NCBI GenBank assembly: GCA_022226935.1
Contig: CP092081.1
Location: 192,902-256,901 of the forward strand
From: Nitrospira sp.
GTDB lineage: Bacteria; Nitrospirota; Nitrospiria; Nitrospirales; Nitrospiraceae
DNA: 64,000 nt
Direction: 5' to 3'
The notes below the pieces were generated by a model. It was not told the origin of the DNA and ran no database searches. It saw only the letters and a program-made list of their open reading frames with translations. This document shows, in pieces, positions 3,940 to 34,567 of this stretch. The first letter of the stretch is position 1; each line of letters starts with the position of its first letter. Made by a program: the position numbers and the translations under genes.

Positions 3940-6900
3940 TCAAGGCGAGGCCGGAGCCGGTACAGCGGGAACGTCGACGGACGGCGCTGCAGAGGGCGGC
4001 GTCTGAATTTCCAACGACGGATCGAACAGCGGCTCCTTCTCCTCTTGCGGCGCGAGAATGTCGATCGGCAGCATGACCGTGTTCTTCAGCAAATCGAAGG
4101 CGAGTTGCGCCACGCCGGTCAGACCGGTGGTAAAGGACTTCATCGGCAGGTAGGTCACCTGCGGATCGTCGATCGATCCCTTGACTTGGAACAGGGCCGT
4201 CGCCAGGCCTTTGCGATCCCCCGCGACCAATCGCCCGAAGAGCGGAATCGATTTCAAAAACTGCGAGTAGGATCCGAACGGGCTCACCGCCCAGATCATG
4301 TCGAGCTGATCGGTGGGCATGTCGTAGGTGCCGACGGCCGAAATCTTCAGGACGGCACTGTCTAAGATAATGTTCTGTGTTTTGACGAGCCCATTTTGTA
4401 CCGTGAGAGTGGCGCTGGCGCGATTGTACTGCAGGCCTTCCTTTTCCAGATCGACTTTCCCTTGGAGTACGGCTGGTAGATTCAGGATGGAGAGAATTTT
4501 CCAGATGGCGCGTTTCTCTGTTTTGAGAATGCGCCCGTCCTGCAGCACGAGTTCCACTTTGCCGTTGAGCGTGGGCAACACTCCATGAGGATTGCGTCCA
4601 TGCCCACGCAGCGCCCCCGTCAGTTTCATGTCGCCGGTGACGGGTTGATCATGCGCACCCAGCAACTGCAACAGTGCCTCGGCGGGAATGCCTGTCATAC
4701 GGACGGAGGTTTCCGTTTCGGCCGGTTCTCCTTTCGGAAGCCGCACGACCATCCGTCCTGCCGCATGCCCAGTCCCCGATTGCGCGACGACACGATCGAG
4801 ATCCAACATGCCATCTTGAATGGTCAACCGGCCGGACAATCCACCGAACCGCAAATGTTTGTAGAGGCCTTTTTCAATGGTGGCTGTGGCGCTGACCTGA
4901 CTGGTCGAGGCGAGCGTTTCCAAGAATTCCCGGATCGGCGAGCGATGGCCTTTCGGAATGAGCAGATCCAGGTCCATTTGCGCCGACTCGATTTTGACGG
5001 CAATCACCGGCTTGGTCGTCCAATTCTTCAGGGCGCCCGAGAGGCTTACATCGCTGTCTTTGATGCGGAACGACAGCTGTTTGATGTCGGCGATGTTTTT
5101 GGAAAACTTCAAGCGAAGGTAGATGTCTTCCACCGCCCCGTCCACGCCCTTGAGCGTCATCAGGCCGTTGGTGAGCGCCAACCAGCCGCCGGCGCGCCAG
5201 TTTTTCCACTCGGCATCCGTACCCTTCACGTCCATGGACACTTCCAGATTGCCGGCTTCGAACCCGCTGCGATACACCCAGTCGGGAAGACTGGAAACCG
5301 ATACCGTGCCCGTGGCGAGCGACGCGTCGATGGAGAATTGATCGCCGAGAATGATGCGGCCCTTCAACGGCAGCCGCAAGGGAGGCACCACCAGTTCAAG
5401 GCGCGAAATCACGAGGCCGATGCCTTTGCTGACGTCAGCGTCCAGTTCCAGGGACGCCGGTGAGCCCAACGGCTTTTCGCCCAACGTTGGAAGCACGAGT
5501 TTGGCTTCATTCAGGCCGATCTCTCCGCGCAAATGCGGCGCGCCTGATGGACCCGAGAGCTGCACTCTGGCAGTGACCATGCCGTACAGCAGGTCGTCGG
5601 GAAAGGTGCCTGCCGACACCATCTGCCGCAGCTGCGAGGCGCTGCCCTTCGCGCGGATGACGAAATCCTGAAACAGGCTCGGCGTGCCTCCGCTGATCAT
5701 CCCGTTGAATTGCAGCTGCGCGTCCCCCACATTGGCCGTGACTTGGTCGAACTGCGCGCCGCCGGTTTGTGAGAACACGATACGGCCATGCATCGCCGTG
5801 AGACGTTGCGGCAGTGACGGATTCATGAGGCTGACCTGTTCAGCCAGCACCTCCCCGCCCGCGAAGGTAATGCCCTCCGGTTTGTCCAAGGGACCGACCA
5901 GCCGGAACGTCGGATGGGTCTGGCCTTCGATGTCGCGTGACTGCGCGAGCAGCGACGTGAGTTTGTCCGCGCGAATGGTCTTGGTTAAAAACTTCACCAG
6001 GTCGGCGGCGCTCATGTCGCCGCTCACATCCAGTTCCATCCAGGGTCCGTCGTCCAGGAACGACACCAGGGCTTTACCGTCGGTGATCTGCAGTGAGCCG
6101 TAGGCGCCCGTCACCTTGCCGACGCGGATGCGCCCCGGCTCCACTGAGATGGTTGCGGCCAGGTTCTGCGTCGGCACACGATCGTTGCCGATCAGGGCCA
6201 TGCCCTTTTCGATCCGGAAGTCACCGGTCAACGACAACTGCGGGCTGGGCGCGGTGGCGCCCGTCAGGGTTGCGGAGAGAATTTCGACGGTGCCTCCCAA
6301 TTGGCGCTGCTCGACGATGGCCGGCAGTTGGGCATGAATCCACTGCGCGGGAATCCTCGCGAAGAGCGACCGGAGATCGATCGACGGTGCCGCGAAGGTG
6401 ATGGAAAACGTCGGTTGCGACGTCAGGAGCCCGGCCAGATTGGCCTTCCCCGTCACCGCCAGTTCATCCACGTGGGCTGCAATCTCGGTCAACACCACGT
6501 CGTACCCGGCGACGCCAGGCGCAACGCGAATACGGCTTTGGAGGCTGGCGCCGCCTTGCAGTTGCGGAGGAACCGGCCTGGGGCCGAAGAAGTCGGCGGC
6601 TTCCCGCAGGCGAAGGTTCGTGGTCTCGATCTCGCCGTCGAATTGAAAGGCCGGGCGGACGGAGTACGGTCCCTCGGCCGCCAGCGTCGAAGAGGATTCG
6701 CTCAATCCGATCGTGCCGGTCAGGGAAAAGGAGGAGGGCGCGCCATTCGCCGGCAGCGCGGCGGAAATATGCAGGTCTCCTTCCGCCTTGCCCGGATACA
6801 CCTTGAGCGCCATCTCGACCGTTTCGAGCTGCGTAGTCCGGACGCCATCCGGCCGCGCCTCGTCCGTCACCGTGATGTGCCCCTTCTGAATAGTCGCTTC

Positions 6901-7353
6901 ACGGATCTGCAGCAGGCGGCTGAACATCTGATAGGCCGACTCGTCCTTGGCCGCCGACGGCAAACCGGCCAGCACATTCCAATGGCCCGAGCGGTTGCGA
7001 ATGAGCGTGACGGTCGGTTCGTTCAGGAAGATGCGCTTGGCGACGACCTGCTTTTTGAGCAATGGAAGCAGGCGCAGGACGATATCGATTTCCTTGGCGG
7101 AGAAGACGACGTGCGTCGGGTCATCGTGGCCGTAAATGCCGACGTTGGTCAGTTCCAGGCGAATGCTGGGCAGCACGACCAGTTTGATGCGATCGACTTC
7201 GATCTTACGGCGAAGGCTGGTTTCGAGTTGTTGAAGGAAGAAGTTTTTGAGGATGTCGACGCCGAACAGTTCGCGCGAATAGAAGAGGACCAGTATTCCC
7301 GCGACCACCAGGCCGAGCAGCGACAGCACCACCGTGCGGGGACGAACCCTCAC
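3940..7353 (-). CDS. AsmA family envelope protein (large, inner-membrane anchored)
   Basis: About 1137 residues. One transmembrane helix lies at residues 8-25 (VVLSLLGLVVAGILVLFY) and the rest is a long periplasmic domain made of repeated beta strands. The N-terminal part after the anchor (LRRKIEVDRIKLVVLPSIRL) and the C-terminal part (AVGTYDMPTDQLDMIWAV through FQVKGSIDDPQVTYLP) are typical of AsmA/YhdP/TamB-like proteins, thought to move or control phospholipid between membranes. It ends in a Pro/Ala-rich tail. The start chosen is a GTG at 7353 preceded by AGGAGG four bases upstream; an upstream extension of 20 codons has no such site. It is divergent from the MFS gene. Confidence 0.87.
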   Translation of the reverse strand: MRVRPRTVVLSLLGLVVAGILVLFYSRELFGVDILKNFFLQQLETSLRRKIEVDRIKLVVLPSIRLELTNVGIYGHDDPTHVVFSAKEIDIVLRLLPLLKKQVVAKRIFLNEPTVTLIRNRSGHWNVLAGLPSAAKDESAYQMFSRLLQIREATIQKGHITVTDEARPDGVRTTQLETVEMALKVYPGKAEGDLHISAALPANGAPSSFSLTGTIGLSESSSTLAAEGPYSVRPAFQFDGEIETTNLRLREAADFFGPRPVPPQLQGGASLQSRIRVAPGVAGYDVVLTEIAAHVDELAVTGKANLAGLLTSQPTFSITFAAPSIDLRSLFARIPAQWIHAQLPAIVEQRQLGGTVEILSATLTGATAPSPQLSLTGDFRIEKGMALIGNDRVPTQNLAATISVEPGRIRVGKVTGAYGSLQITDGKALVSFLDDGPWMELDVSGDMSAADLVKFLTKTIRADKLTSLLAQSRDIEGQTHPTFRLVGPLDKPEGITFAGGEVLAEQVSLMNPSLPQRLTAMHGRIVFSQTGGAQFDQVTANVGDAQLQFNGMISGGTPSLFQDFVIRAKGSASQLRQMVSAGTFPDDLLYGMVTARVQLSGPSGAPHLRGEIGLNEAKLVLPTLGEKPLGSPASLELDADVSKGIGLVISRLELVVPPLRLPLKGRIILGDQFSIDASLATGTVSVSSLPDWVYRSGFEAGNLEVSMDVKGTDAEWKNWRAGGWLALTNGLMTLKGVDGAVEDIYLRLKFSKNIADIKQLSFRIKDSDVSLSGALKNWTTKPVIAVKIESAQMDLDLLIPKGHRSPIREFLETLASTSQVSATATIEKGLYKHLRFGGLSGRLTIQDGMLDLDRVVAQSGTGHAAGRMVVRLPKGEPAETETSVRMTGIPAEALLQLLGAHDQPVTGDMKLTGALRGHGRNPHGVLPTLNGKVELVLQDGRILKTEKRAIWKILSILNLPAVLQGKVDLEKEGLQYNRASATLTVQNGLVKTQNIILDSAVLKISAVGTYDMPTDQLDMIWAVSPFGSYSQFLKSIPLFGRLVAGDRKGLATALFQVKGSIDDPQVTYLPMKSFTTGLTGVAQLAFDLLKNTVMLPIDILAPQEEKEPLFDPSLEIQTPPSAAPSVDVPAVPAPASP

Positions 7354-7541: not shown

Positions 7542-8786
7542 GTGAGGTTCGACACATCGACGGCACGACCGCGTTGGGGCATTCTCGCCTTGCTGTTTGC
7601 CATCAGCGCAGTCACGTACATGGATCGGGTCAACATTTCCGTCACAGCCCGGCAGATGATGCCTGCCTACGGCATTACCGACCAGGACATGGGCTACGTC
7701 TTCTCGGCGTTCGTCTTCGGCTACGCGCTGTGCCAAATACCCGGCGGTCGCCTGGGCGATCGCTGGGGCGCGCGTGTCGTGTTGGCCTGCGCCTTGGTCT
7801 GGTGGTCGATTTGTACGGTGTTGACCGCCGTTGTCGCGACCCTGCCGCTGGCGAGCCTGGTCGGGACTGTGGGAGCGCTGGTCATCGTACGGTTTCTACT
7901 TGGCGTGGGCGAGTCGGTCGCGCTGCCGAATTTCAATCGTGCCGTGGCCGACTGGGTGCCGCCTGGACAACGGGGGCTCGGCATCGGCATTGCCATCGGC
8001 GGCATCGGCATCGGCGCCGCCATCACTCCTCCCCTCGCCTCCTGGGTGATGGTGAACTATCACTGGCAATCGGTGTTTTACCTCTCGGCCCTGATCGGCC
8101 TCGTGGTGGCGGTGTTGTGGGTGTTCTTCTCGCGGGATGGGCGGAGCGGCGCAGTGGCGAAGTCAAGAACAATCCCGCCGCCGGTCCCCTGGCGAACTAT
8201 CTTCCGCTCCCGGTCGCTCTGGTGGCTCGTCGCGAGTTATGCCTGCCTCGGCTACGTCGCCTATATCTACATGAGCTGGTTTTATCTCTATTTGGTGAAC
8301 GTGCGCGGGATCGATCTTTTACGCGGTGGGTGGCTTGCGGCGGGACCCTTTCTCGCCATACTCATGTTCTGCCCACTGGGGGGATGGGTGACGGACAAGC
8401 TCGTGCCGGCTCTCGGATTACGCAAGGCCCGACTCTCTATCGGCATGACCGGTATGGCATTGGCCGGCGGGCTGATCGCAGTTGGCGCCTGGGTGGAATC
8501 CCACACCCTGGCGATCGGCTGCCTGTCGCTCGGCGCCGGGTGGCTCTACTTTACCGTGGGCGCCTACTGGAGTGTGACGACGGATCTGTCGAAAACCCAT
8601 GCGGGCACATTGTCGGGCGTGATGAATACGGGGGCCAACTTAGGCGGCGTGATTTCGCCGAGCCTGACGCCCTGGCTGGCCGATCAGTGGGGTTGGACGG
8701 CCTCGCTGCTGGTGGCCGCCGGCATCGCCCTCTGCGGAGGCTTCATGTGGATGAAAGTTGATCCGGAGGAGGGATTGAGGGAATGA
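7542..8786 (+). CDS. MFS transporter, anion:cation symporter-like
   Basis: About 414 residues with twelve hydrophobic segments. The hallmark loop between helices 2 and 3 is present as GGRLGDRWGARVV, and helix 1 contains AVTYMDRVNISV, typical of the ACS family (hexuronate, glucarate, phthalate and related organic anions). Start: a GTG at 7542 places helix 1 about ten residues in; a GTG at 7485 would add 19 residues without obvious homology. The 3' end (8667-8765) is repeated almost exactly at 9550-9648, on the far side of a toxin-antitoxin module, so the gene's end appears to have been used as an insertion point while the gene itself stayed intact. Substrate unknown. Confidence 0.88.
   Translation: MRFDTSTARPRWGILALLFAISAVTYMDRVNISVTARQMMPAYGITDQDMGYVFSAFVFGYALCQIPGGRLGDRWGARVVLACALVWWSICTVLTAVVATLPLASLVGTVGALVIVRFLLGVGESVALPNFNRAVADWVPPGQRGLGIGIAIGGIGIGAAITPPLASWVMVNYHWQSVFYLSALIGLVVAVLWVFFSRDGRSGAVAKSRTIPPPVPWRTIFRSRSLWWLVASYACLGYVAYIYMSWFYLYLVNVRGIDLLRGGWLAAGPFLAILMFCPLGGWVTDKLVPALGLRKARLSIGMTGMALAGGLIAVGAWVESHTLAIGCLSLGAGWLYFTVGAYWSVTTDLSKTHAGTLSGVMNTGANLGGVISPSLTPWLADQWGWTASLLVAAGIALCGGFMWMKVDPEEGLRE
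8646..8786. repeat. Direct repeat, left copy (3' end of MFS gene)
   Basis: Last about 140 bases of the MFS gene. The core 8667-8765 (99 bases) matches 9550-9648 with one mismatch by eye; similarity fades outside the core. The offset is 883 bases. Confidence 0.9.
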
Positions 8787-8834
8787 TGCTACGGGCTTGA
8801 TGAGGCCACTCCAACGGATGGAGCGCTATACGGT

Positions 8835-8866
8835 TTGCCACACCGCTATCTTTCTGATACAGTATC
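8835..8866 (+). promoter_or_regulatory. Likely promoter and operator of the MazF-type toxin-antitoxin module
   Basis: TTGCCA at 8835-8840, a 17-base spacer and TACAGT at 8858-8863 resemble a sigma-70 promoter. The perfect inverted repeat GATACAGTATC (8856-8866) overlaps the -10 region, a usual place for antitoxin binding and autorepression. The surrounding 8840-8905 stretch is clearly AT-richer than its neighbours. Confidence 0.5.
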
Positions 8867-8903
8867 ATTCAATATTACATTTACATGGTAGAATGAAGTT
8901 TTA

Positions 8904-9140
8904 ATGAGTACCATTACTGTGACATTACCGGATGAACTACTGAAGCATTGCACGCGCTATGCTCAGTCACTCCACTTATCGAGGGCGGCATATATTCGTC
9001 AATCCTTGGAACGCATGAACCGCGAAACTGAGCGACAGATTCGCGCTGATCGTCTCACTCAGGCCTCGCACAAGGTGCGCGGCGAGAGTATGCGCATCAA
9101 TGCGGAGTTCGATGCCATCGAGACGGACCCGCATGCGTAA
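8904..9140 (+). CDS. Antitoxin, ribbon-helix-helix type (MazE-like partner)
   Basis: 78 residues. The N terminus (MSTITVTLPDELLKHCTRYA followed by LSRAAYIRQSLERMNRE) has the beta strand, helix and helix pattern of a ribbon-helix-helix DNA-binding antitoxin. The C-terminal half is charged and would wrap the toxin. Its stop codon overlaps the toxin start by 8 bases, so translation is coupled. It is expected to neutralise the toxin and repress the promoter at 8835-8866. The gene lies inside the segment flanked by copies of the MFS 3' end. Confidence 0.85.
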   Translation: MSTITVTLPDELLKHCTRYAQSLHLSRAAYIRQSLERMNRETERQIRADRLTQASHKVRGESMRINAEFDAIETDPHA

Positions 9141-9477
9141 ACGCGGGGAGATTTGGCTTACCGACTTGAGTCCGCGACGTGGGACCGAGCCCGGGAAAAC
9201 CAGACCGGTGCTCATCGTTCAAGCTCAAGCGCTGCTCGATGCAGGGCATCCCTCCACGCTGATCATCCCTCTCACTACCCAGCTCGTCGATGATGCTGAA
9301 CCGCTTCGTATCCGTATCATGGCTCAGGGGAAACTTCGAAAAGACTCCGATTTGCTGCTAGATCAAGTCCGCGCAATCGACAACCAACGATTGACTGATG
9401 GTCCATTGACCCGCCTCGCAGCGACCCAACTCCGGACCGTATCCCACGCTCTTAAAGTAGTGCTAGATTTAGCGTAA
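9133..9477 (+). CDS. MazF/PemK-type endoribonuclease toxin
   Basis: 114 residues from the ATG at 9133. The family signatures are RGEIWLTDLSPRRGTEPGKT, RPVLIVQAQ and, later, LLLDQVRAIDNQRL. MazF toxins cut single-stranded mRNA at short sites; the conserved Arg of GTEPGKTRP and the Asp-Gln-Val-Arg strand belong to the active region. The start is set by the family's usual beginning (MRKRGEIW) and by overlap with the antitoxin stop. The product is complete and looks functional. Together with the antitoxin it forms a two-gene module that seems to have entered by duplication of the MFS gene end. Confidence 0.9.
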   Translation: MRKRGEIWLTDLSPRRGTEPGKTRPVLIVQAQALLDAGHPSTLIIPLTTQLVDDAEPLRIRIMAQGKLRKDSDLLLDQVRAIDNQRLTDGPLTRLAATQLRTVSHALKVVLDLA

Positions 9478-9527
9478 GTCCGCCGGCACGTGCGGGCTGG
9501 ATACCTGTTCTCTTCCCACTAAGTGAA

Positions 9528-9669
9528 GCGCCGTAATTTGCCAAGTCTCACGCCCTGGCTGGCCGATCAGTGGGGTTGGACGGCCTCGCTGCTGGTGGCC
9601 GCCGGCATCGCCCTCTGCGGAGGCCTCATGTGGATGAAAGTTGATCCGACTGAGGGGATGAGGGAGTGA
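9528..9669. repeat. Direct repeat, right copy (MFS 3' end duplicate)
   Basis: Non-coding duplicate of the MFS gene end, including the TGA at 9667-9669. Core 9550-9648 differs from 8667-8765 by one base; the flanks show more substitutions and one single-base gap. It bounds an insert of about 740 bases (8787-9527) holding the toxin-antitoxin genes. The rest of 9481-9817 shows nothing recognisable. Confidence 0.88.
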
Positions 9670-9817: not shown

Positions 9818-11347
9818 TCACGCCCGGTTCACTTCCGCCGGTTGCGGCACGCCTGAGCTATCGAGCTGATAAGCGTAGGCTTCCTTCATCTGGACGTTGC
9901 CGCTGTCGGTGTAGACGAAGAACCGATGTCCATCGGTGCGGGTTTTGACGAGGCCATACGCGGTGCGGCTGAAGCCGAAGAAGGGCCCTCGTTTCTTGGC
10001 CGCCTTGTCGTCCTGCAATCGGCAGAGGCCTTCGGTTGCGAAAAAGGCCACCAGTTCGGTCGCGAAGATGAGCGGCTCCGGCACGCGCGACCATTTGCCC
10101 AGGGCACCCATGAGCGTGGCGCGCGGATGGATGTATTCTTTGCGCGCGCTTTCGTCGCCGCAGGACACCACGCTCACGATCGGCGACACAGCTTGAATGA
10201 ACGCGCCGGAAAAATCGGCCGAGCCATGGTGCGGCACCTTGAACACTTCCGACCGCACGTTGAGGGTGCCCTTGTTGTGTTCGCGGGCGAGGAATCGGCT
10301 GGCTTCGTCGTTGAGGTCTCCTGAAAACAAAACGCTGAAGCCGCCGTAGCTCAGGCGGAGCACAATCGAATGGCCGTTGATGGTGTGAGAGGCGGAATGG
10401 CCGGTGAAGCCTTCGTCGCTGTCGTTGAGCGAGTCGTGACCGATGCGCGGTCCCTTGGGCGGTTCGCCGAGAAAGCGCAGCGCCGGTTTCCCATCCACCT
10501 CCGTGGTGATTGGGCCCAGCACCTCGATGCGCAGGTCGTCCCGATTGAAAAACTCGAAGGCGTGGTCATCACCGAGTTGCAAGCGCCGGAAGCTGACCGG
10601 GCTGCGGCTGTTGTAGGTGGCGAGGGTCTGTTTCCATTCCCGGAACGGCTCGTTCATCTCCTTGTCGTCCACCTCCAGCAGATTCTCTTCCAGGCCGGTG
10701 AGGTAGAGTTGCCCGTTGACCGTCTTGGTCGGCCCCAGCAGCTTCGTGTCGGGCACGGTTTTGTTGTTCATCTTGCTGGGGCGTTTGACGAGACCGTTAT
10801 GATAGACGCGCTGCGGCTGCATGAAGAGCTGTTTGCGTTTGACCTTGTTGGTTTCGGATGTGAGGATCTCGCTGAGCCCGGCGAAGTGATCGGCGTCGCC
10901 GTGGGTGACGACGATGCAGTCGATGGCCTTCGGCTGCTGGAGGCTGGTGTTACGGAAGCGCCCGGCGAGGTAGCGCGCGAACATCTGGTTGTCGCCGCCG
11001 TCGATGAGGATGACCTTGCCGTCGGGAGATTCGATGACCATGCCATCGCCCTGCTGGACATCGACGAAATTGACCTTCAAAACCTTGTTGTCCGCCACAG
11101 GCCGGACCAGATCGGTCACCTTGATGCCGGAAGATTTGGTTGGTTCGATGTAGCCGGTGACGGATTCCGGGAGGATGCTGCCGTCGGGCTTCTCGCGAAA
11201 GAATGTGATCGTGACTTCGAGGTAGGTAGCCGCCTGCTTGACCACGGTGATTTCATCTCCCCACGCGATCGTGCGGATGCAATTTTTGCGGCCCCGCTCT
11301 TTCCACACATCGGCCAGATCGACATTGAGCACAGCTTGGTCAGGCAT
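9818..11347 (-). CDS. Metallo-beta-lactamase fold hydrolase, ComEC/Rec2-like
   Basis: About 509 residues from the ATG at 11347, which has GAGGGAAA upstream; an upstream ATG at 11401 lacks such a site. The N-terminal 90 residues look like an SH3-type beta domain. The catalytic domain begins with LKVNFVDVQQGDGMVIESPD, ILIDGGD and THGDADHFAGL, the zinc-binding motif in the form seen in ComEC C-terminal domains and stand-alone ComEC-like hydrolases. A later VLFSGDLNDEASRFL and KVPHHGSADFS complete the site. No membrane helices or signal peptide are present, so it is probably soluble. In related proteins the role is DNA or nucleotide hydrolysis, or defence; here it is unassigned. Confidence 0.85.
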   Translation of the reverse strand: MPDQAVLNVDLADVWKERGRKNCIRTIAWGDEITVVKQAATYLEVTITFFREKPDGSILPESVTGYIEPTKSSGIKVTDLVRPVADNKVLKVNFVDVQQGDGMVIESPDGKVILIDGGDNQMFARYLAGRFRNTSLQQPKAIDCIVVTHGDADHFAGLSEILTSETNKVKRKQLFMQPQRVYHNGLVKRPSKMNNKTVPDTKLLGPTKTVNGQLYLTGLEENLLEVDDKEMNEPFREWKQTLATYNSRSPVSFRRLQLGDDHAFEFFNRDDLRIEVLGPITTEVDGKPALRFLGEPPKGPRIGHDSLNDSDEGFTGHSASHTINGHSIVLRLSYGGFSVLFSGDLNDEASRFLAREHNKGTLNVRSEVFKVPHHGSADFSGAFIQAVSPIVSVVSCGDESARKEYIHPRATLMGALGKWSRVPEPLIFATELVAFFATEGLCRLQDDKAAKKRGPFFGFSRTAYGLVKTRTDGHRFFVYTDSGNVQMKEAYAYQLDSSGVPQPAEVNRA

Positions 11348-11464
11348 GCAATTTCCCTCGCAGACTGTTGATGGAAAGCGGCGATAGAATACGCCGTTCA
11401 TCGGAAGAAATCACGCGGGTCTGCCCCCTTGCCGATGGAATCACCAGCCTGCTACATTTGCCCC

Positions 11465-32700: not shown

Positions 32701-32715
32701 AAAGCCATGAGCCCC

Positions 32716-33090
32716 TCACCACTTCCGTCCTGCCCCTCCCCCCAACGGCGCAAACGGCACCGTCGGACTGAACTCGTTGATCGGGTTCAACGGATTCTCC
32801 GGGCGATAGCGATTCACCGGATTGAAGGGATTGTTGGAGTTGAATTGGTTGATCGGATTGGCGGGGTTGCCGGGATCGTAGCGGTTGATCGGGTTGAAGG
32901 GATTCGCCGGATCGTAGGCATTGATGGGATTGAGCGGGTTGGAAGGCTGGTACTGGTTGATGGGATTGAAGATGTTAAAGCCCCGCTGGTATTTCTCATC
33001 GAACCCTTGCTCCGCCAGGCCATTCCCGATTGACGCCAACCAGACTAGCCCGCCGATGATCGCCGCAGTCCGCACCTGAGCCTGTCGCAT
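32716..33090 (-). CDS. Secreted Asn-Pro repeat protein, copy 1
   Basis: 124 residues from the ATG at 33090, which has GGAGGGGGCC upstream. A signal peptide (AAIIGGLVWLASIGNGLAEQ) is followed by eight or nine imperfect units of about 10 residues of the type NPINxYxPxNP, then a short tail. The repeat is rich in Asn, Pro, Phe and Tyr, with no Cys or metal motif. I know no characterised family. Its paralogue lies at 33933-34313 in the same direction, with a BrnT/BrnA module between. The product is probably extracellular or periplasmic, perhaps an adhesive or structural fibre. Confidence 0.75.
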   Translation of the reverse strand: MRQAQVRTAAIIGGLVWLASIGNGLAEQGFDEKYQRGFNIFNPINQYQPSNPLNPINAYDPANPFNPINRYDPGNPANPINQFNSNNPFNPVNRYRPENPLNPINEFSPTVPFAPLGGGAGRKW

Positions 33091-33165
33091 GGCCCCCTCC
33101 CTTGTGCCTGTTTCTATCCTGCCAGGCAGCCTACACCATGACCGTGACATCCGGGGTCACAAGAA

Positions 33166-33200
33166 GACGTGAAACGTGAAAGGTTAAACGTAACAGACAA
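33166..33200. repeat. GTGAAACGTGAAAGG-type repeat cluster f
   Basis: GACGTGAAACGTGAAAGG followed by TTAAACGTAACAG, just upstream of copy 1 of the Asn-Pro repeat gene. Confidence 0.55.
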
Positions 33201-33310
33201 TAGGTATCGTTGGGACAGGGAGCGGAGACATCTAGAAGTATTGAGGGTCGCCTAGACTTTGCTCAGCAGCGTGAGGTTCTTGACCGTATGTCCACTGCGC
33301 TGCAAGACCA

Positions 33311-33812: not shown

Positions 33813-33932
33813 GTTTCTGTATATACATGAATTGCGGCAGCGGCACAAGAACCGCACTGCCGTGGGAGATTACAGGGAGCAGAAAATTGAAAACGACATG
33901 AGTGAACCTGATCGGGGCCGTGGGGTTCCCCC

Positions 33933-34313
33933 TCACCGCTTCTTCCCCATCCCTCCCACGCGATCCAGCGGCCCAAACGGCACGGTGGGATTGAATTCAT
34001 TGATCGGATTCAGCGGGTTTTCCGGGCGATAGCGATTTATGGGATTGAAAGGATGGTTGGGATTGAATTGATTGATCGGATTGGCGGGGTTACCGGGGTG
34101 GAATTGGTTGATCTGGTTGAAGGGATTCGCCGGATCGTAGGCATTGAGGGGATTGAGCGGGCTGGTGGGCTGGTACTGGTTGATGGGATTGAAGATATTA
34201 AAGTCGCGCTGGTACTTCTCGTCGAATCCCTGCTCCGCCCCGCTGCTCCCGATCGATGCGAGCCAGAGCAGCCCGCCGACGATCGCCGCTGTCCGCATCT
34301 CTCCCTTCCTCAT
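33933..34313 (-). CDS. Secreted Asn-Pro repeat protein, copy 2
   Basis: 126 residues, same plan as the protein at 32716-33090: signal peptide (MRTAAIVGGLLWLASIGSSG), a conserved AEQGFDEKYQRDFNIFNPIN junction and tandem NPxNPINxYxP units. The two copies agree over nearly all their length, with changes mostly at the variable repeat positions, so they come from a recent tandem duplication. The ATG at 34313 agrees with the start of copy 1. It ends 120 bases before the brnT start. Confidence 0.75.
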   Translation of the reverse strand: MRKGEMRTAAIVGGLLWLASIGSSGAEQGFDEKYQRDFNIFNPINQYQPTSPLNPLNAYDPANPFNQINQFHPGNPANPINQFNPNHPFNPINRYRPENPLNPINEFNPTVPFGPLDRVGGMGKKR

Positions 34314-34387
34314 GGCTGCGTCCTTGTGCCGGTTTCCATCCTGTCAGGCAGCCTACACCACGACTGTGACATCCGGAGTCACAAGAA

Positions 34388-34430
34388 GGCGTGAAAGGTG
34401 AAACGTTACACGTAAAAAGTAACGGGCACC
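34388..34430. repeat. GTGAAAGGTGAAACGT-type repeat cluster g
   Basis: GGCGTGAAAGGTGAAACG followed by TTACACGTAAAAAGTAACGG, upstream of copy 2 of the Asn-Pro repeat gene, in the same relative place as cluster f upstream of copy 1. The duplication probably carried it along. Confidence 0.55.
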
Positions 34431-34567
34431 GTTCGGAGCGGAAGCGGAGAGATATGGACGCGTTGAGGATGGTGTAATGAGTAGCAGCTGATGATCCTCC
34501 AGCGCAGTGATGCTCGATACCTTCCTCAGGACCTTGCGCCAACAGGGCGACCCGTCGAAACAAGAAA

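Follow-up and report, generated by a model that had tools for sequence, protein, structure and literature searches.

How does a toxin-antitoxin gene pair come to lie behind a transporter gene whose 3' end is repeated on the far side of the pair? The question is raised by a locus of a nitrite-oxidising bacterium of the genus Nitrospira (N. defluvii group) with a single-contig chromosome of 4.23 Mb (G000), from which a stretch of 64,000 nt, called the window in the following, was analyzed. A sequence-only reading had described the locus as the insertion of a single MazF-type module, had likened it to elements that are added at a gene end and carry a replacement end, and had named a lost integrase gene as one explanation. 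Comparison with related genomes revealed that the module is actually one cassette of a multi-cassette array. We assign a probability of about 0.6 to the reading of a modular cassette array that is anchored in the 3' end of the MFS gene. Under this reading, cassettes would enter the array by RecA-dependent recombination and would be exchanged via the copies of the gene end, and toxin-antitoxin pairs would bring about retention. Searches of an open-access library yielded no paper on this locus or on such arrays in Nitrospira.

The duplicated gene end and the gene pair in the window

The MFS transporter gene (7542 to 8786, forward strand; start codon uncertain; PF07690, 1.3e-66) is intact, as the sequence-only reading had stated. 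Its 3' end from 8654 to 8786 recurs on the same strand at 9537 to 9669, with identity at 122 of 133 positions (92%). Within this repeat, the core from 8667 to 8765 and its copy from 9550 to 9648 are identical at 98 of 99 positions, with a single mismatch at 8742 and a start-to-start distance of 883 nt. These values had been given exactly, and the size that had been estimated for the duplicated stretch, about 100 to 140 nt, was right. The second copy comprises the gene end only and is in frame up to its own stop codon (TPWLADQWGWTASLLVAAGIALCGGLMWMKVDPTEGMRE). Copies of this gene end, including that of the gene itself, are termed END here. Chance or low complexity as the source of the duplication is ruled out by the expectation for such a 99-mer pair within the window, which an independent-base model puts at about 4e-47. 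An assembly artefact is likewise ruled out by the presence of arrays in single-contig chromosomes (G000, G020 and G001, which is Ca. N. defluvii FP929003); draft contigs tend to end within END (G014 and G027).

The two copies are separated by an antitoxin-like gene and a toxin gene and by no other gene, which bears out the earlier description. A leader (8787 to 8903) contains a promoter-like match at 8835 to 8863, with the consensus being matched at chance level (one found, 0.8 expected). It is followed by the antitoxin-like gene of 78 aa (8904 to 9140), the toxin gene of 113 aa (9136 to 9477) and a tail (9478 to 9536), the junction of which is similar to the one that this cassette has in G023 and G025; all of these parts are on the forward strand. 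The toxin belongs to the PemK/MazF fold family (PF02452, 5.1e-24, 85 bits at a cut-off of 23.1) and matches MazF, PemK and EndoA structures with values down to 1.6e-14. The 78-aa protein is CopG- or ribbon-helix-helix-like by sequence, with a weak DUF6290 match below the cut-off (21.6 versus 27), and its gene overlaps the start of the toxin gene. We regard the pair as a predicted PemK/MazF-type toxin with a putative antitoxin. Structured RNAs were not found in the region with Rfam. Downstream of the second copy lies a convergent gene for a protein with a metallo-beta-lactamase fold (9818 to 11401, reverse strand; PF00753, 1.1e-12), which is also the neighbour in relatives and forms the right bound of the site in about half of the genomes. 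Elsewhere in the window, a 535-nt direct repeat (32712 to 33246 and 33929 to 34468; 81%) contains two copies of a gene for an NPxNPxNP-type repetitive secreted-like protein.

Cassette arrays behind the same gene in related genomes

The region was searched against 29 genomes of the same genus, with one genome per species and many of them draft MAGs, and the loci were then fetched. The MFS gene is present in 27 genomes, and in 14 or 15 of these its 3' end occurs two to five times, at a spacing of about 0.7 to 1.6 kb. Extra copies were found in G000, G001, G002, G005, G008, G012, G016, G018, G019, G020, G023, G025, G027 and G028; G014, with non-identical copies on its two contigs, is probably the fifteenth array genome. 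Two comparisons that had been proposed earlier gave positive results: empty sites with one END occur in several genomes, among them G003, G006, G007, G010, G013 and G017, and in relatives the same point has also received other insertions. The sequence-only reading had also held that two copies of the gene end in strains without the toxin-antitoxin pair would contradict an insertion. Such genomes literally exist (G002, G005, G012, G016, G018 and G020), but other cargo lies between their copies. The left gene is constant at the site, and the right neighbour varies among genomes. In the rest of the family, a family-wide protein search found a second match in just 1 of 123 genomes with the gene, which is doubtful and on a separate contig. 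Beyond the family, the same architecture is present at the orthologous gene of two Nitrospirales genomes (L105 and L107). At three further loci (L035, L037 and L038), a large operon without a subsequent END lies 3' of the MFS gene or array and before the next conserved gene; it contains a gene of about 1060 to 1137 aa with smaller neighbours and is RND-efflux-like by its arrangement only.

Cassette boundaries were drawn from similarity, and the segments between the copies clustered into types that share leaders and junctions. A cassette comprises 0.7 to 1.5 kb of cargo, which in most cases is a type II toxin-antitoxin pair, and 100 to 240 nt of the MFS end, to which the cargo is joined. Type A carries the CopG-like/PemK pair of the window (7 genomes), type B MazE/MazF (5 genomes, plus remnants fused behind type C in three), type C DUF433/DUF5615 (3 genomes), type D a NUDIX gene (6 genomes, plus one case without a second END), type G DUF2283 and a 107-aa partner without family (3 genomes), and type H a remnant of a CopG antitoxin. 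The cargoes of type E, UPF0149 with SEC-C, and of type F, an OYE-family oxidoreductase, are also found in the gene that follows the last END. The orders of the cassettes differ: A-E-B-D in G023, C-A-HG-D in G028, B-F-E in G005, A-B in G001, B-G in G020, A-D in G019, and C-D in G012 and G018. Because the NUDIX, UPF0149 and OYE cassettes are not toxin-antitoxin pairs, addiction cannot account for all retention. The farther END copies lie from the gene, the more decayed they tend to be, with those on the side of type D being mostly 70 to 84% identical to the gene end, and this is expected if new units enter beside the gene.

Two copies of the type A pair were found outside of the MFS locus, one in G003 and a partial one in G005 (L061, 3377 to 3950 with 4509 onward; L062, 20 to 1336 with 1336 to 1626). 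Both adjoin CRISPR arrays, which have two repeat types of 29 nt and about 37 nt, and in L062 the partial toxin-antitoxin copy directly abuts the last CRISPR repeat.

The anatomy of one insertion can be read from the distant pair of L105 and L107, the latter representing the empty site for the insertion in the former. L105 matches L107 on both sides (8500 to 9272 with 7714 to 8486, 89%; 9925 to 10633 with 8402 to 9109, 84%), and the extra 737 bp consist of a DUF4160/DUF2442 pair and an 85-nt duplicated end. In the alignment, the downstream copy keeps the native tail LKHE, and the gene now terminates with LKPI. The comparison thus shows that the cargo was inserted together with a single gene end, and that the incoming tail became that of the host gene. 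In the window, the tail of the second copy, DPTEGMRE, is native-like, i.e. similar to those of the nearest relatives (DPTEGMRE in G007, DPTERMRE in G014 and DPTEGLRE in G013), and the MFS gene itself has a tail of the incoming type, DPEEGLRE, which resembles more distant species. This suggests that the gene of the window also took a borrowed tail and stayed whole, and that its native end was pushed downstream. The idea of an addition at a gene end that carries a replacement end was therefore supported both by the tails and by the pair of filled and empty sites. On the whole, the alignments show that cassettes vary in presence and order, that the junctions are at the end copies, and that an incoming tail is taken while the native end is displaced downstream.

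Similar arrangements were observed at a few other places. In another Nitrospirota genome (L108), the end of a DUF188 (YaiI/YqxD) gene (4883 to 5350) is copied about 1.8 kb downstream (6976 to 7137) with a gene for an OprB-like porin in between, which is the same architecture with another gene and another cargo. In G000, a sequence close to the 3' part of a GNAT gene's end (contig C1, 2901513 to 2901607) is repeated across a selD-like gene (2903250 to 2903346; 78%). As this weak case was the only candidate besides the MFS locus in about 1.26 Mb of G000, such arrays are not general in this genome. In a more distant Nitrospirota genome, an opposite-strand MazF-like gene lies behind the MFS gene (L081, 5187 to 6093), between two 74-nt direct repeats (78%) that are seemingly not the MFS end.

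Cassette movement and the underlying recombination

Between subclades, cassettes are 88 to 92% identical, whereas the respective MFS genes are 78 to 81% identical. The values are 91.6 versus 79.0% for type E in G011 and G023, 92.0 versus 81.2% for type B in G020 and G023, 88.3 versus 78.9% for type A in G008 and G025, and 88.8 versus 78.4% for type D in G017 and G018. Within one subclade the two identities agree (92.4 versus 92.3% for type A in G025 and G028). The between-subclade excess implies that cassettes move horizontally, and these identities indicate exchange between species. The type A copy of the window exceeds its MFS gene in identity only slightly (about 82 versus 77%), so its arrival would be older, or from an unsampled source.

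Several features of the END copies bear on the type of recombination. The left boundaries differ by cassette type, yet recur within most types, and END positions 4 to 100 do not follow the flanking cassette on either side. Mismatches between the extra copies and their own gene end are distributed evenly along the END interior. END copies are homogenised within genomes: for 12 of 34 copies the nearest neighbour is in the same genome, versus 1.6 in shuffles, and none of 2000 shuffles reached this number. G018 lacks two array segments of G028, and at the join the END is a mosaic. No integrase was seen in the array segments of the 27 genomes, which were covered by inspection of the ORFs and, for representatives, by family searches. 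Taken together, the variable boundaries, the even mismatches, the homogenisation, the mosaic join and the absence of an integrase indicate homologous recombination. A lost integrase gene is not needed as an explanation. The length of the repeat, the mosaic crossovers and the homogenisation of the copies fit homologous recombination better, with a recombinase acting in trans being less likely.

Under the reading of a RecA-dependent cassette array, a fragment consisting of gene end and cargo, either circularised or linear, would recombine with the gene end by one Campbell-like crossover. In E. coli, linear DNA has been documented to circularise and then to undergo a RecA-dependent single crossover (PMC3240628). 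The transporter would survive the entry because the fragment includes the stop codon, and 3' ends would be favoured since such a fragment leaves the gene whole. Later exchange would proceed by crossover and conversion between END copies and would be fed by DNA uptake, which is plausible because 26 of 29 genomes have ComEC. A cassette would be deleted if the direct repeats around it recombined (loop-out), and toxin-antitoxin cargo may be kept because its loss harms the cell; in integrons, harm on excision of toxin-antitoxin cassettes has been reported (PMC11023631).

Alternatively, the arrays might be CIME-like remnants, such that a site in the MFS end is acted on by a site-specific recombinase of the tyrosine or serine type, whose gene is located elsewhere or has been lost, with the gene end as attL and attR. 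CIME/IME accretion typically gives tandem units that are bounded by gene ends and carry a replacement end (PMC5704250, PMC3146451), and about 16 integrase-like genes score over the cut-off elsewhere in G000. However, none of these is located within about 150 kb of the locus in the complete genome, in line with the earlier statement that no integrase is present, and none was found beside any END in 27 genomes. A constraint on END at the DNA level, as for an att site, was rejected because excess synonymous conservation was not found in END and the mismatch profile is even; the variation of the left boundaries with cassette type also argues against this alternative. Positions 12 to 44 of END are most alike between copies, but real gene ends are equally alike there, so protein constraint explains this similarity. 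A fixed crossover core was not found in these tests, which a very short core would escape, and homogenisation can mask the position of a crossover. Neither a phage nor a plasmid was found as carrier of END, with plasmids being searched by similarity and viral contigs by exact pattern only. All in all, we consider a recombinase acting on the MFS end to be unlikely.

Homology-facilitated illegitimate recombination (HFIR) would let one incoming end pair with the gene end and the other join, without homology, at a point farther upstream within the gene end of the recipient, which would duplicate this end; the array would then evolve mostly by descent, loss and conversion. Random left boundaries and the borrowed tail would be accounted for, the process has been described in naturally competent species (PMC3240628), Ku is over the cut-off in 17 of 29 genomes, and a gene-end repeat around a single gene also exists at the DUF188 gene of L108 and, weakly, at the GNAT gene of G000. 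However, a cassette type can have the same junctions in distant species, which implies that the finished unit moves whole, so that HFIR would cover founding events only. Ku and NHEJ were also rejected as a correlate, as the occurrence of Ku does not match the distribution of the arrays. As an account of the arrays, HFIR thus appears quite improbable. The use of END copies as attC-like sites by an integron integrase has a negligible probability and is largely refuted, because IntI, although over the cut-off in G002, G016, G021 and G028, does not co-occur with arrays (it is not over the cut-off in G000, G001, G020, G023 and most array genomes, and G021 has a single END), and because END copies are ends of coding genes, even though a cassette array rich in toxin-antitoxin pairs is reminiscent of sedentary chromosomal integrons (PMC11023631).

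Implications and relation to known systems

It is clear that small toxin-antitoxin pairs of bacterial chromosomes are transferred from one bacterium to another, but the vehicle is usually not visible. The MFS locus suggests an integrase-free route, by which a cassette with a spare end of its host gene can land harmlessly behind this gene, stack with others, and be exchanged through the end copies. If true, this would be a platform for cassette capture without a recombinase. The array architecture is found again at the orthologous gene of a distant Nitrospirales lineage and perhaps at other genes. A wider proposal is that integrase-free arrays use the 3' end of a protein gene as a reusable recombination site, accumulate by RecA-type recombination, consist of cassettes with a functional replacement end, and are stabilised by toxin-antitoxin addiction; we put it forward tentatively, at somewhat less than even odds. 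Any genome can be searched with a simple rule, i.e. for a gene end that is repeated 0.5 to 2 kb downstream with cargo in between. The locus could also serve as a natural test case for the idea that addiction guards DNA between repeats against loop-out.

Four known systems were compared with the arrays. The minimal mobile elements (MME) of Neisseria (defined in PMC3082526) comprise various gene cassettes at one chromosomal site, which spread by homologous recombination without an enzyme of their own; the arrays share the varied cassettes at one site and the lack of an own enzyme, and probably also the spread by homologous recombination. However, in MME two conserved flanking genes provide both homologous arms and no duplication is needed, whereas in Nitrospira every cassette comes with a copy of the gene end, the cassettes form stacks, the right neighbour varies, and the second arm is the copy of the left gene's end. 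CIMEs and tandem islands at gene ends (PMC5704250), such as the ssrA islands of Dehalococcoides (PMC3146451), also consist of tandem units bounded by 3'-end copies, some of them without an integrase, and the copy beside the gene restores the gene, as in the arrays. They differ by a fixed short repeat (20 bp in the ssrA islands) and by related islands that have a recombinase. The Nitrospira arrays have repeats of 100 to 240 nt with variable extent and units of 0.7 to 1.5 kb; neither a fixed att core, of which a very short one could escape notice, nor an integrase, whether in a unit or in a related element, was found.

Sedentary chromosomal integrons (PMC11023631) resemble the arrays in having ordered small cassettes and toxin-antitoxin pairs with their own expression, for which a stabilising role has been proposed, but the arrays lack an associated integron integrase and their repeat is the end of a protein gene. 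Insertion-duplication by a single crossover and HFIR (PMC3240628) likewise produce an insertion with a duplicated homologous arm; in contrast to these laboratory events, the arrays recur at one gene in many species, and finished cassettes are shared. By analogy, the Nitrospira array may be viewed as MME-like transfer crossed with a tandem array of the CIME or integron type.
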